The translations under genes and the position numbers were made by a program. From contig JAJYUB010000021.1 of assembly GCA_021792795.1 (NCBI GenBank), positions 1-59,442 of the forward strand: a stretch of 59,442 nt of DNA. The letters run 5' to 3'. The DNA comes from Acidobacteriota bacterium. GTDB lineage: Bacteria; Acidobacteriota; Terriglobia; Terriglobales; Acidobacteriaceae. This document shows, in pieces, positions 710 through 47,210 of the stretch. Under the pieces are notes generated by a model. That model was not told where the DNA came from and made no database searches. It worked only from the letters and a program-made list of their open reading frames with translations. How positions within the stretch are numbered: the first letter of the stretch is position 1; each line of letters begins with the position of its first letter.

Positions 710-761
710 AGCGGTTTCACTTCACATATCAACACCGGGACAGCGTGCAAGGCGGCTTTTT
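710..761 (+). repeat. Dispersed repeat, left-half copy (copy 1)
   Basis: These 52 bases match the left half of the nested element at 46296-46405 with only two substitutions, starting at AGCGGTTTCACTTC and ending in GGCGGCTTTTT. The matching right half is absent here. The end of the repeat overlaps the stop codon of the esterase gene (TAA read from 762-760), so the repeat supplies the 3' end of that gene. Confidence 0.8.
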
Positions 762-2298
762 ATTTGCCATTGAATGCTGTTGCCTGGAAGGGGGAAGCCG
801 GAAGATTTGCGTCGTTGTACAGATTGCAGTCCGGATTGGCGGCCCATCCATAGCGCACGGCTACCGGAACTGCAACCGAAGCGCTGGAGACCAGCACGGT
901 CCCGCCATCGATCGTCGCCTGGGCAGGGAAGTACTTTCGATCGGCGCCTGCCACCTCAAATCCGCGAAGCGTTCCGTTCTTGCTGGTCAGGCCGCTTCCC
1001 GTGTGGTCGAACCACACGCGCAAGCCGTGGCCCTCGCTTGTCACCTGGCGAAAGATTGGACCGGAATATTCAATAGGCTCTCCATAGGCGATTGCGCGCG
1101 CCGCCAGTGCCAGCCGCGCGCCGACATCCTGCTTATCTTTGGGATGAATATTGTCCGGATCTCCAACGTCGATCGACACAGCCATGCCTGTATTCTTAAG
1201 CGCAAGCGCCTCAGTCTGCTGTTCGCGGAGTTCAGGCCACGTAGAACCTGGGTTCCAGTTGGGCAACTGCACAAATAGGAATGGAAAAGCTCCTTGCGCC
1301 CAGTGATTGCGCCAGTCCTGAATCATCGTTTTGAACAGCTCTCCATAAATGGGGACGGCTTCCGGGTCCCCATTCGATTCGCCTTGATACCAGATCACTC
1401 CTTCGATCGCGAATGGGGTCAGGGGCGCAATCATTGCGTTATATAACCCTGCCGGTTTCCATGAGTCCGGGTCCGGATGCCAGGGAAATTCCGGGACCGG
1501 CTTGCCGGCGGCCTTCGCGGCTTCAATTTCCTGCTGCTCCTTCTTCTGTTGCAACATAGTGGTCGGCAATTCATCCATCAATTTGGCGCGCCATGCAAAG
1601 ACAGGCATCAGCGAGGCATTCGCGGAGAGCGCATCGAGGCTGGTCCATGCTTCGGCAACGGTCCCGCCCCAGGTGTCGTCGATAACTCCAATGGGAACGT
1701 CCTGGTGCTGCTGCAGGTCTCTCGCAAAGAAATAACCGACAGCGGAAAACTGGGCCACCGACGCCGGCGTGCAGACGCTCCAGGCGTGCCGGACCGCCGC
1801 ATCCGTCAGCGGATAGTCGGACGACTTCGGCTCAATGTCCAGCAGGCGAATCCGAGGACAATTCGCGGCGGCGATTTCGGCTTTCTCGTTGTTCACTCCG
1901 CGATTCATTCCCTCCGCCATGGGAAATTCCATGTTGGACTGCCCCGAAGCGATCCAGACATCGCCGACCAGCACATCCTGCAGCGTGATCGCGTTGGCGC
2001 CGTGAATCTCCATCGAAAACGGGCCTCCGGCTTTGCCTGGCTTCAGATATACGCTCCATCGTCCCAGGTTGTCTGCGACTGCATTTTGCGTTTCTCCGCG
2101 AAATGTAACCGACACAGTTTCATTTGGAGCCGCCATTCCCCATACATGCACGGGCAGGTCCCGTTGCACCACCATGTGGTCGGCGAAAATCGAGGGCAGG
2201 CGCACCTCGGCACGAGCAAGCGGGATGGAACAGACGAGGATTGCGAGGGCCACAAGCCGCGTCGTTTTCAAGCCAGTAAAGGAAGTCAAGCGTTTCAC
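760..2298 (-). CDS. Secreted sialate O-acetylesterase-like SGNH hydrolase
   Basis: The 512-residue protein has an N-terminal signal peptide ending near ARA-EVRLP (residue about 30), then the layout of the sialic-acid 9-O-acetylesterase family. The nucleophile block is DVWIASGQSNMEFPM (serine of GQSN, about residue 122). A conserved IEGVIWYQGESNG block follows near 300, and the catalytic Asp/His pair is probably in GDPDNIHPKDK near 377. In soil bacteria such enzymes deacetylate plant or microbial polysaccharides as often as sialic acid, so the substrate is open. It follows the CocE-type hydrolase gene with a 26-base gap, so the two are probably co-transcribed. The last codons and the stop lie inside a dispersed repeat. 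Confidence 0.85.
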   Translation of the reverse strand: MKRLTSFTGLKTTRLVALAILVCSIPLARAEVRLPSIFADHMVVQRDLPVHVWGMAAPNETVSVTFRGETQNAVADNLGRWSVYLKPGKAGGPFSMEIHGANAITLQDVLVGDVWIASGQSNMEFPMAEGMNRGVNNEKAEIAAANCPRIRLLDIEPKSSDYPLTDAAVRHAWSVCTPASVAQFSAVGYFFARDLQQHQDVPIGVIDDTWGGTVAEAWTSLDALSANASLMPVFAWRAKLMDELPTTMLQQKKEQQEIEAAKAAGKPVPEFPWHPDPDSWKPAGLYNAMIAPLTPFAIEGVIWYQGESNGDPEAVPIYGELFKTMIQDWRNHWAQGAFPFLFVQLPNWNPGSTWPELREQQTEALALKNTGMAVSIDVGDPDNIHPKDKQDVGARLALAARAIAYGEPIEYSGPIFRQVTSEGHGLRVWFDHTGSGLTSKNGTLRGFEVAGADRKYFPAQATIDGGTVLVSSASVAVPVAVRYGWAANPDCNLYNDANLPASPFQATAFNGK

Positions 2299-43997: not shown

Positions 43998-44561
43998 ATG
44001 TCTACAAATGCGGTCCCAGCGGAAAATCCGCTGCGGAATTTGTTTGAGGAAATCGTGTACGGCTGCTACAGCCAATCCTCCGAGGTGAACGACGCCGAAA
44101 TTTCCAGCTACGTCGCCGGCATCCTCACCGATTTTGCCGAAACCGAGCAACTCTATCGCATCCGCGACCGCCGCGGCCGCCCCCTGCGCGAAGTCAGCGA
44201 CATGCTGGTCGCCTCCGATCCGGTCTATGGAGATGCGTACTCCTTCCCGCGCGAACGCGAGGTGCGCAAGCACATTGGCGACTTCAGCCTGTTCTTTGCC
44301 GGCATGTTTCCGGAATCCGCCCAGTGGTTGCGGCGCAACCAGCATGAAAGTTTGCAGGCGCTTCGCCGCGCCGGCAAGGAAAGCTACTACATCGTCTCGC
44401 AATTCAACATTTTCGAGTTTGAACAGGAAGCCCCGCTGTTCGCGCGCCTGGCCGACGCCTTCGATGCCTGCGCCGACGGACTGACGCAGGTGCGAAAAGA
44501 ACTGGACCGCCGCCGCCTGCTGCCGCACAATGCGACACCGCCGCCGAAGTTGCTTATGTAA
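43998..44561 (+). CDS. Uncharacterised 187-residue cytoplasmic protein
   Basis: The ATG is preceded by ATAGGAGC. The protein is soluble, mostly helical and without signal peptide or recognised domain. Visible features are NPLRNLFEEIVYGCYSQSSE near 10-29, YVAGILTDFAETEQLYRI, an EREVRKHIGDFSLFFAGMFP block near 90-109 and a Gln/Arg-rich ALRRAGKESYYIVSQFN. Codon use is that of a normal host gene. It precedes the DNA methyltransferase gene by 70 bases in the same direction, but no functional link is evident. Confidence 0.75.
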   Translation: MSTNAVPAENPLRNLFEEIVYGCYSQSSEVNDAEISSYVAGILTDFAETEQLYRIRDRRGRPLREVSDMLVASDPVYGDAYSFPREREVRKHIGDFSLFFAGMFPESAQWLRRNQHESLQALRRAGKESYYIVSQFNIFEFEQEAPLFARLADAFDACADGLTQVRKELDRRRLLPHNATPPPKLLM

Positions 44562-44631
44562 AAAAGGCCAAGAGAAAGCAAGTCCTCTAACCTGGCTGCC
44601 CGCCCACCCTTGCTTTCAAAGGGGGGCGCAC

Positions 44632-46179
44632 ATGTCTGACATGAGCGGCTGGCATGAGATAATTTGCGCCATGCGTGCTTTGTCCAGCAAGCCTTCCTCG
44701 CTGCTCGATACCCGCGTCATCTACTGCGGGGACAATCTCGACCAACTCAGGAAACTTCCGGACGCCTGCGTGGATTTGATTTACATCGATCCTCCATTCA
44801 ACTCCAACCGGAACTATGAGGTGTTTTGGGGCGAGACGAAAGAGAAGCGCTCGTTCGAGGACCGGCATGAGTCCACCCAGGCCTATATCGAATTCATGCG
44901 CCCGCGCTGCGTTGAACTGGCGCGAGTGCTCAAAAAGACGGGCAGCTTCTATTACCACTGCGATTGGCACGCCAGCCATTACGTCAAGGTAATGCTCGAC
45001 CAGATTTTCGGCGAGAACCTGTTCCAAAACGAAATCGTCTGGCGCCGGACTACGGCGCATGGCGATACACACGGATTCGGTCATGTACACGACATCTTGT
45101 TTCGTTACTCGAACGGCGGAAAGCCAACCTTCAATGTGGAGTTGAAACCGTACCCACAGGCATACATCGACAAATACTTCATTTTCGAAGATGAGTATGT
45201 CGCGGAACGTGGCAAGCATTGGCGAGCGGACATCACAGGTGCCGGCCTTCGCAATGGGGAAACCGGGGAAGTCTGGCGCGGCTTTAACCCAGCCAAGATC
45301 GGCCAGGGCCGGCATTGGATGCGACCGCCATACGAGCTTGAGAGGCTATTGGAAGACGGGCGTATTTATATTCCTCCTGGCAACGGCATACCAAAGTGGA
45401 AACGGTATGAAAAAGAACTGACTGGAATTCCCATTGATTCAATCTGGGAAGATATACCCTCCCTCGGCGGATTATCGAAGTCCGCACATGAGTCTCTCGG
45501 CTATCCAACCCAGAAACCGGTCGCCCTCCTCGATAGGATTATCACGGCAAGCAGCAACGAAAACGACATCGTTCTCGATGCCTTCTGCGGCTGTGGTACG
45601 GCTTTGGTCGCGGCCCAAGGTTTGGGGCGACAATGGATTGGAATCGATATTTCTCCAACAGCGTGCCGCGTCATGGCGAAGCGGTTACGGGACGTGTGCC
45701 GACTCCCGGAAGATGAAAAACTGTGGCGCGTTGGCCGCGGTTTTGTTGTGCGCGACCTGCCGTGGTCAGAAAAGCAGCTTCGCGCCATCCCACCGTTTGA
45801 GTTTGAAAACTGGGCTGTCATCGCGCTCGGCGGTATTCCCAACAAGGCGCAAGTCGGCGACATGGGCATCGACGGGCGCATTTATCCAGTGTCTTCCATG
45901 CCCAGCACCAGCGGGAAGAGCGCAGGCGAACTCGACTTCATGGATGCCTGGTATCCGGTCCAGGTGAAGCAAAAAGACAAAGCGGGCAGGCCGGACATCG
46001 ATATGTTTGAGGCCGCCATGTTGCGCGAAAAGCGCAGCAAGGGTTTCTTCGTCTCGTTTGAGTTTTCGTCCGACGCTCTGCGCGAGATCGACGCATTCTT
46101 TCGGCGTGAGCACCGCATGATTATTCCGCTTACAGTTCGAGAAATCCTGGACGAGACCATCGCCATGAAATTGGCGTGA
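44632..46179 (+). CDS. Beta-class DNA methyltransferase fused to an Mrr-like nuclease domain
   Basis: ATG 44632 (AAAGGGGGG upstream) gives 515 residues; ATG 44671 is an alternative. The methyltransferase part has motif IV CVDLIYIDPPFNSN near 47-60 and motif I VLDAFCGCGTALVAAQ near 314-329. This order (IV before I) marks the beta class, which methylates adenine-N6 or cytosine-N4. YPTQKPVALLDRII near 290 is the usual motif X. Residues about 380-515 add QVGDMGIDGRIYP near 405 and YPVQVKQKDKAGRPD near 440, which fits the D-(Q)xK active site of Mrr_cat nucleases. KRSKGFFVSFEFSSDALREI follows near 465. The protein may be a self-contained restriction-modification enzyme. No specificity subunit is adjacent. 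Confidence 0.85.
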   Translation: MSDMSGWHEIICAMRALSSKPSSLLDTRVIYCGDNLDQLRKLPDACVDLIYIDPPFNSNRNYEVFWGETKEKRSFEDRHESTQAYIEFMRPRCVELARVLKKTGSFYYHCDWHASHYVKVMLDQIFGENLFQNEIVWRRTTAHGDTHGFGHVHDILFRYSNGGKPTFNVELKPYPQAYIDKYFIFEDEYVAERGKHWRADITGAGLRNGETGEVWRGFNPAKIGQGRHWMRPPYELERLLEDGRIYIPPGNGIPKWKRYEKELTGIPIDSIWEDIPSLGGLSKSAHESLGYPTQKPVALLDRIITASSNENDIVLDAFCGCGTALVAAQGLGRQWIGIDISPTACRVMAKRLRDVCRLPEDEKLWRVGRGFVVRDLPWSEKQLRAIPPFEFENWAVIALGGIPNKAQVGDMGIDGRIYPVSSMPSTSGKSAGELDFMDAWYPVQVKQKDKAGRPDIDMFEAAMLREKRSKGFFVSFEFSSDALREIDAFFRREHRMIIPLTVREILDETIAMKLA

Positions 46180-46295
46180 ACCGTGCCGTTCGACGAGTTC
46201 ACCGATGGCTTTTCATCCAATATTTTTTGCGCAACGGATACAGACAATCGCGTGGCAGCCTTTACCAACCTGTGGGGGCGGGCCGCCATTTCTAG

Positions 46296-46405
46296 AGCGG
46301 TTTCGCTTCACATATCAACACCGGGGCAGCGTGCAAGGCGGCTTTTTCTTGGGGAAAAAGCCGCTCGGCTGCATGGCTTCTGTAAGCAGCAGAAGCGAAA
46401 CCGCT
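46296..46405. repeat. Nested inverted-repeat element, full copy (copy 2)
   Basis: The ends are a perfect 14-base inverted repeat: AGCGGTTTCGCTTC (46296-46309) and GAAGCGAAACCGCT (46392-46405). Inside, GCGGCTTTTTC (46338-46348) pairs with GAAAAAGCCGC (46354-46364) around a 5-base loop, and GCTGC (46368-46372) pairs with GCAGC (46386-46390). The left 52 bases recur at 710-761. No coding capacity; non-autonomous element or structured RNA are both possible. Confidence 0.8.
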
Positions 46406-46466
46406 GTAGCCGTCAGGAATCGCCGGGTCTGTCCCAGCCGCCCTTCCATCTGATACATCTATTTCC

Positions 46467-47210
46467 ATGCCCATTCCACCATTTACCCGCAGAAATTTCC
46501 TATCCACCGCCGCGCTTGGCTCTGCCGCGCTGGGTTGGCTGCCGCGCAACGCATCAGCGGAAGCGGCCGCCGTTTCCACGAGCCAGGCCGACTGGCATGC
46601 AAGCCAGACCGAATGGGACGCGGCGCCCTTCAACCGTCTGCTGCGCGCTCGCCGGACCGTCAAGCAGCTCTTCGACGCGACAACGCCGGATGGAGAAATG
46701 CTGACGGCTCATGTCCACAACGCTCTCACTGGGCTGGAACGCGGTTTCGGCATTCCAAAGGAAATGATTCTTGTGGTCGTCGCACTACGCTCGCACGCCA
46801 CTCTTCTCAATCTCGACGACTATGCCTGGAAGAAATATCAACTCGGGGCCGGGTATAAGGTCAAAGATCCAGCCACAGGCAAACCGGCGGAACGCAACAT
46901 ATATTTCGCCTCCATCCTGGCGCCGGATGGCAGGTATGCGTCGGACAATCCCAACGATCCGCGCTCCATCGAGTCGGACACATCGCTCCAGGCCATCCAG
47001 CGCCGCGGCGTTCAACTGTTGTGCTGCCATGTGGCCATTGAAGGCACAGCCCACTACGCAGTGGAGCGGCTCAAGTTGCAGGCGAGCCAGGAAACAGTGG
47101 CGCAGGATTTGCTGGCCCATCTGTTGCCCGGCGTACTGGTTGTTCCCAGCATGGTTTCCGCCATTCCGTTGCTGGAGACGCATGGACGCTTCGCCTATCT
47201 GCGGCTGTGA
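46467..47210 (+). CDS. Tat-exported protein of unknown function
   Basis: The 247 residues begin with a twin-arginine signal, TRRNFLSTAALGSAALGW, with probable cleavage after NASA near 31. The mature part has KQLFDATTPDGEMLTAHVHN near 70, EMILVVVALRSHATLLNL near 100, GVQLLCCHVAIEGTA near 180 and VVPSMVSAIPLLETHGRFAY at the end. The alternating strand-helix pattern and Cys pair resemble a DsrE-like fold, but I cannot confirm this. Tat export suggests folding or cofactor loading before translocation. It lies alone between two repeat elements. Confidence 0.75.
   Translation: MPIPPFTRRNFLSTAALGSAALGWLPRNASAEAAAVSTSQADWHASQTEWDAAPFNRLLRARRTVKQLFDATTPDGEMLTAHVHNALTGLERGFGIPKEMILVVVALRSHATLLNLDDYAWKKYQLGAGYKVKDPATGKPAERNIYFASILAPDGRYASDNPNDPRSIESDTSLQAIQRRGVQLLCCHVAIEGTAHYAVERLKLQASQETVAQDLLAHLLPGVLVVPSMVSAIPLLETHGRFAYLRL

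Follow-up and report, generated by a model that had tools for sequence, protein, structure and literature searches.

A putative IS630-type MITE and its central-hairpin family in a class of Acidobacteria

A 112-bp element in the acidobacterial window, by which we mean the whole 59,442-nucleotide stretch of DNA analysed, is very probably a MITE that would be moved in trans by a transposase of the IS630/Tc1-mariner type. It belongs to a class-wide family of near-constant length, in which most members carry a central hairpin. This reading of the sequences draws on several copies, exact ends, empty sites that reveal TA duplication, IS630 transposase genes in the genome and family ends that resemble those of IS630; we infer both the identity of the transposase and a cut-and-paste mode of movement. 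In the proposed mechanism, the inverted ends (TA followed by GAGCGGTTTCGCTTC) would be bound by the IS630-type transposase, which would excise the element and join it to a TA, here inside CTAG, and the TA would thereby be duplicated. The family adds a large group of mobile DNA to those of a class of Acidobacteria.

Structure, copies and insertion sites of the element

Letter-by-letter checking bore out the perfect 14-base terminal inverted repeats (TIRs) and the perfect 11-base inner hairpin given in a preliminary description of this DNA, and the third, 5-base stem that it listed was also found (Table 1). The extent of 110 bp that it gave, 46296-46405, is sound for an inverted-repeat element, but the true element is slightly longer. 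The hairpin is centred at 46351 and the midpoint of the element lies at 46350.5. The segment 46288-46413 folded better than all of 200 dinucleotide shuffles on both strands (z -5.5 and -6.5), and the half copy with its flanks showed no unusual folding against dinucleotide shuffles on both strands (z -0.03 and 0.74). The GC content is 57% for the element and 59% for the window. The 112 bp are non-coding and below the size needed for a transposase gene. Neither an intrinsic terminator (GC-rich stem plus T run) nor a sigma-70-like promoter was found within 46200-46500, where the T run sits inside the 5' arm, and a reading as terminator or promoter was dropped on these grounds.

Table 1. Features of the element and of the half copy, in window positions
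Feature	Positions	Strand	Remarks
MITE proper (putative), G...G	46295..46406	+	112 bp; 4 copies in host genome; ends set by empty CTAG sites
Left TA target duplication, within CTAG	46293..46294	.	Empty CTAG in G008; for copy 2, in G006 and G008
Right TA target duplication, within GTAG	46407..46408	.	From flank reading and empty sites
Left terminal inverted repeat	46296..46309	+	14 bp, perfect
Right terminal inverted repeat	46392..46405	-	14 bp, perfect
Central hairpin	46338..46364	.	11-bp stem, 5-base loop; recurs across the family
Central hairpin arms GCGGCTTTTTC/GAAAAAGCCGC	46338-46348, 46354-46364		Pairing perfect over 11
Third stem, 5' arm	46326..46330	+	5 bp; partner 46368-46372
Third stem, 3' arm	46368..46372	+	Partner 46326-46330
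Left half of a further copy	710..764	+	Broken at hairpin tip; same half copy in same-genus G006

A DNA methylase gene (N6_N4_Mtase match, window positions 44530-46179) lies directly upstream of the element. In G006, the sequence upstream of the homologue of the element's downstream gene is a different one and carries an IS630-like end, CTAAAGCATTTCTCCTGTC. The interval around the methylase gene and the element looks variable between species.

The host assembly (4.04 Mb in 133 contigs) holds four full copies, on contigs C86, C106, C114 and C13, which align over 110/110 bases at 95-100% identity, together with the half copy. All four read CTAG, 110 bp, GTAG, and pairs of them differ by 2-6 substitutions, none of which is compensatory. 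As had been described, positions 710-761 repeat the left 52 bases of 46296-46405 with two changes and no more, a G to A at position 10 and another at position 31. The half copy of G006 has matching flanks and the identical break at the hairpin tip, and therefore the half copy probably predates the split of the host and G006. No full copy at host-like similarity was found among 40 relatives, and a GTDB scan with 33 bases of the host subfamily, in which host records were possibly excluded, returned only the half copy, on MAG contig JAJYVR010000164.1 (FK2.bin41). Two more diverged members of other subfamilies are present in the host genome (L154 and L155; G000:C94:18771-18887 and C70:65052-65170), and the one on C70 resembles element L117 of G004 as judged by eye.

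For each of the four insertions, the two flanks were joined, looked for in 10 genomes of the same genus, host included, and aligned to 22 loci. Clean, uninterrupted CTAG empty sites were recovered for two of the four host copies as three alleles, namely in G008 for the window copy (copy 1) and in G006 and G008 for copy 2, whose region is present but diverged in three further relatives. The occupied site equals the empty site plus 112 bp plus TA, indicating that a G...G element was inserted at TA and that the TA was duplicated. According to PMC2170065, IS630/Tc1-mariner elements have been demonstrated to insert at TA and to duplicate it, and the reference list of that paper names the CTAG preference of IS630. 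For copy 3, four relatives cross the site without the element, but their sites are diverged, and in G006 the left flank alone matches, up to CCTAGCG; for copy 4 the left flank alone aligns in relatives. A clean CTAG empty site was found in these genomes for neither of the two. The preliminary description would have been refuted by only two copies, with none elsewhere, no target duplication and no compensatory changes, and this is not what was found; the genome search that it proposed returned four full copies and the half copy in the host and relatives elsewhere, the clean empty CTAG sites show a TA duplication for two copies, and compensatory changes occur between subfamilies.

The GTAG at the right border also carries the tag of one REP superfamily, and the segment might then be one of the REPIN-like repeats, for which a RAYT (REP-associated tyrosine transposase) is the mover. 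REPINs are defined by two short tagged hairpins, and their insertions are not expected to duplicate the target. Three Y1_Tnp matches, a domain shared with other transposases, occur in the host genome (L093-L095, G000), and tyrosine transposases of acidobacterial species are listed in the available part of a study of GTAG-tagged REPs (PMC3733652). However, the empty sites resolve the GTAG here into the G of the element, the duplicated TA and a flanking G, and the element ends form a single long inverted repeat. For the movement, the TA-duplicating empty sites largely refute a REPIN/RAYT origin, which we regard as highly improbable.

Terminal repeats and candidate transposases

There are 14 DDE_3 (IS630) matches in the host genome, some of which are pieces of one gene or lie at contig ends. 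TA-flanked IS630 elements were delimited on C2 and C131 of the host and in G007, G021 and G023, and 9 of their 10 ends begin GAGC; in C131, HTH_33 and DDE_3 fall in different open frames. The ten 24-base ends of these five elements agree with the family ends at 18-21 of 24 positions (equalled by 0-12 of 2000 shuffles) and those of a sixth element, in G217, at 18 and 16 of 24 (3 and 67 of 2000 shuffles), the family ends compared having been picked by a pattern starting TAGAGCNNTT, which favours a match to IS630 ends. Four elements with TTGA/CTGA-type ends reached 8-11 of 24 against the family, which is the shuffle level. The ends of the host subfamily agree at best at 15 of 24 positions with IS630 ends of the host genome (L048; C131 gave just 12) and at best at 16 of 24 with IS630 ends outside it (G021). 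The mobile, non-autonomous element that had been one of the two readings offered at the outset is backed by empty sites, TA duplication, near-identical copies and IS630-like family ends.

DDE_3 was found in 7 of the 15 genomes searched. The 8 in which this search gave none are G275, G319 (one contig), G388, G122, G348, G134, G322 and G025, and 6 of them have matches of the hairpin-blind pattern described below. In G169 and G189, with about 100 copies apiece, ends could be assigned to three of the four IS630 matches; they are of the TTGA/TTGC type and unrelated to the family. The fourth match is a fragment with no ends that could be recognised, and an IS630 with family-like ends was found in neither genome. 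The missing mover in such high-copy genomes may have been lost once the elements had spread, or may lie in assembly gaps.

That neither genome yielded an IS630 with family-like ends favours a MITE moved by some other TA-targeting transposase, for example of the IS427 group of IS5, the IS630-like ends being coincidental. The IS427 group of IS5 duplicates TA, and PF13340 (IS5-type) matches number five in the host genome and one each in G275 and G122. Against this, PF13340 is absent from G169, G189, G319 and G388, four of the seven genomes searched, inverted ends of at least 16/20 were not found around the PF13340 gene of G275, and the GAGC-type IS630 ends match the family above shuffles. An IS5/IS427 partner was dropped because of the four genomes without PF13340 and the G275 gene without inverted ends, and movement by any transposase of this other kind seems distinctly improbable to us.

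The family across the class and its central hairpin

At the DNA level, matches were obtained in 6 of the 399 genomes of the class that were searched, host included. With a covariance model built from 11 copies (E<=0.01, at most 9 candidates scored per genome), matches were obtained in 40 of the 399 genomes and 14 of 135 genera. One model match was inspected in each of 29 genomes; these are 116-120 bp long with ends mostly TTAGAGC or CTAGAGC, and their layout is a hairpin at the centre, in many cases followed by a CTTCGGTYTACACC-like stretch, and then the complementary end. Since a covariance model favours hairpins, a hairpin-blind search was also run with the pattern TAGAGCNNTTN{80,110}AANNGCTCTA, outside which the host copies fall because their right end begins CAGC. 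It tallied 293 elements in 23 of the 399 genomes, 109 of them in G189 and 92 in G169, versus 26 for the reversed control. These pattern matches, with near-fixed length, varied ends and a compensating central hairpin, constitute a natural test set in which it can be asked directly whether MITEs need internal structure to move. A TIR pattern allowing at most one mismatch hit 218 forward and 196 reverse places (414 in total, control 0) on the single 6.4 Mb contig of G169, and this genome probably holds on the order of 200 elements. One G169-type pattern had no matches in viral contigs. Elements L242-L244 (G419) and L199-L200 (G088) have similar ends, lengths of 126-128 bp and unrelated inner hairpins, which suggests repeated origin or exchange of the inner hairpins.

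Hairpin tests were applied to 60 of the 68 places listed by the hairpin-blind search. Counted with both TAs, 49 of the 60 elements are 113-118 bp long. An uninterrupted stem of at least 8 is present in 36, the best stem lies at most 1.5 bases from the midpoint in 40, and at most 10 of 200 shuffles were as good in 39, with 3 expected. Among 26 representatives (<72% identity), 13 have a stem of at least 8, 15 are centred and 13 pass the shuffle test (1.3 expected). The central hairpin is common in the family, not universal. The failures include two apparent chance hits in coding sequence (G314, G294), and some failing elements may be decayed; the G348 type, whose hairpin has an internal loop, is also among the failures. 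Interior folding energy gave a weaker signal (z < -2 in 25/60).

The pairing of the arms was compared between sequences. Among the 19 representatives with lengths of 113-118 bp, 143 of the 171 cells are paired between the arms of the best centred stems. Swapping 3' arms between the 19 gave 108 paired cells on average and at most 127 (2000 swaps), and shuffling each interior and re-choosing the best centred stem gave 88 on average and at most 106 (300 shuffles). For all 26 representatives, 177 of 234 cells pair (swap and shuffle means 125 and 119, maxima 147 and 140). In 11 elements with a stem of at least 8, the T/A-rich tip is kept and the base varies through GC, CG, TA and AT pairs, this comparison having drawn on a set in which L246 (112 bp) replaces L245 (115 bp, off-centre hairpin). 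An 11-sequence alignment, whose members were partly found through hairpin similarity, has two-sided changes in 12 of 26 pairs, 3 of these in the central hairpin; its covariation score was reached by no shuffle, and every slid structure scored lower. When 20 elements, namely the window copy and 19 others hand-picked from the hairpin-blind set, were aligned with MAFFT and folded with RNAalifold, the terminal stem alone emerged and the central hairpin was not recovered; because loop lengths differ and so misalign, the hairpin was tested per sequence. The covariation check suggested in the preliminary description thus yielded compensatory changes between subfamilies and none among the four host copies.

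Variation was then measured within one genome. Of 48 copies fetched from G169, 44 were kept. The hairpin played no part in deciding orientation or inclusion, and in a few of the kept copies it is truncated or rearranged. Substitution rates were 0.035 and 0.042 in the hairpin arms, 0.068 and 0.073 in the TIRs, where one end had been used for selection and much of the variation is at one or two positions, and 0.197 and 0.128 in the spacers. Variation in the arms is thus about a quarter of that in the spacers, and none of 20,000 column permutations was as extreme. Orienting 38 copies with help from the hairpin biases the sample to intact hairpins and gave an inflated contrast (0.018 vs 0.12-0.17). 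The spacer had been described as conserved together with the stems, which fits recent spread; in the larger family of G169 the spacers vary most and the arms least. Among 365 hairpin cells in G169, 19 are changed, comprising 6 wobbles, 9 broken pairs, 2 other double changes and 2 compensated ones. The arms are the best-kept part in this genome, yet single copies are mostly unrepaired. In the simplest reading, the sequences that retain the hairpin would be those still multiplying, or copying templated by the hairpin would repair it, and the hairpin would not be kept by selection on each copy for a service to the host.

Whether the hairpin does anything is a separate matter. It may be non-adaptive, with quasi-palindrome correction keeping palindromes perfect and making compensatory changes, and this reading, which is compatible with a MITE, has a real chance of being right although we would not call it probable. 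It is favoured by a G169 copy, L307, with a compensated stem change, by the half copy at 710, which ends at the hairpin tip, and by L327 of G169, a snap-back palindrome in which both halves are of the right-half type. Most hairpin changes in G169 stay uncompensated, however, so correction is not efficient, and the arms vary less than the TIRs, themselves palindromic (0.035-0.042 versus 0.068-0.073). L327 (G169:C1:1975604) is one long palindrome and perhaps records strand switching at the hairpin.

A more tentative idea, which we hold to be somewhat doubtful, is that the central hairpin is a working part, as DNA (cruciform or single-strand) or as RNA, that would be needed for or would boost IS630-type transposition. 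If it were true, subfamilies with different ends would keep the place of the hairpin and a near-constant length while the letters drift by compensation. No need for such a central hairpin is known in IS630-type transposition.

Relation to known repeats and siting at genes

The family is new, and its kind is already known from RUP, ERIC and Correia-like repeats. No description of it came up among the papers listed for MITEs, IS630 and Acidobacteria in the open-licence literature. In the accessible portions, a 2024 MITE review (PMC10969869) does not mention Acidobacteria, IS630 or a hairpin; of two acidobacterial genome papers, one names MITEs in a plant reference alone (PMC8841776) and the other treats insertion sequences with no mention of IS630, miniature or palindrome (PMC5900883).

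By analogy, the element would work like RUP of pneumococcus in size, TA termini, IS630-like TIR and folding. The available text on RUP describes a non-coding, tightly folded repeat of 107 bp in 108-110 copies, with an IS630-like TIR and TA insertion, for which IS630-Spn1 is the proposed mover (PMC2229807, PMC3049150). RUP differs in sequence and phylum and is AT-rich, with 27.5% GC (PMC3049150) against 57% here; the centred, compensating hairpin was examined for the acidobacterial family alone. ERIC/RU-1 of enterobacteria is likewise TA-ended with cases at gene 3' ends, and ERIC measures 127 bp (PMC2229807, PMC10969869), but its TIR is listed as 7 bp (PMC2229807), versus 14 bp here. Correia/NEMIS of Neisseria is also described, in the part seen, as a TA-ended MITE, with Correia TIRs of 24 bp and stable stem-loop transcripts (PMC2229807); promoter and IHF motifs and RNase III cleavage are given for it (PMC2229807, PMC10969869), whereas the element here has no sigma-70-like promoter in the region searched.

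The structured RNA family put forward as the other initial reading would require that the segment be transcribed and fold and that the fold serve the host, for example in mRNA 3'-end stability. An effect on mRNA decay is reported for ERIC, with a 3'-end stability effect in Yersinia, in the accessible text of PMC2229807. The strong folding on either strand, the compensatory changes between subfamilies and the many insertions on the TA of a stop codon, which might hence be transcribed in 3' UTRs, would agree with it. Rfam, however, gave 0 matches at E<=5 for 46000-46700, and 20 related loci likewise gave 0 at the gathering threshold; the 40 relatives yielded no full copy with host-like similarity, the four host copies show no compensatory change, only 2 of the 19 changed hairpin cells in G169 are compensated, and siting at stop codons is not clearly above expectation. 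When the subfamilies of a palindromic repeat covary, this alone does not count as evidence of a structured RNA gene, and we consider an RNA function of this kind unsupported and unlikely.

On strict gene calls, 13 of 33 insertions are on the TA of a stop codon, and 9 of 33 lie within a called open frame. Judged by the sites that lie outside genes within 200 bases, 8.1 would be expected on stop codons for TA and 11.7 for YTAR, so special targeting of stop codons is not shown, and the idea was dropped in view of the YTAR expectation. YPAL sequences of Yersinia are palindromic insertions near stop codons. They are listed without TA termini in a table of PMC2229807, unlike the TA-flanked element here. 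A looser count has a long open frame ending on the left-border TA(G) in three of the four host copies, and in 29 family members it places the stop at the left border in 12 and at the right border in 3. There is an apparent bias towards the left end, resting on few cases, with 11 left and 2 right in the strict count and 15 left and 3 right in the looser count, host copies included.
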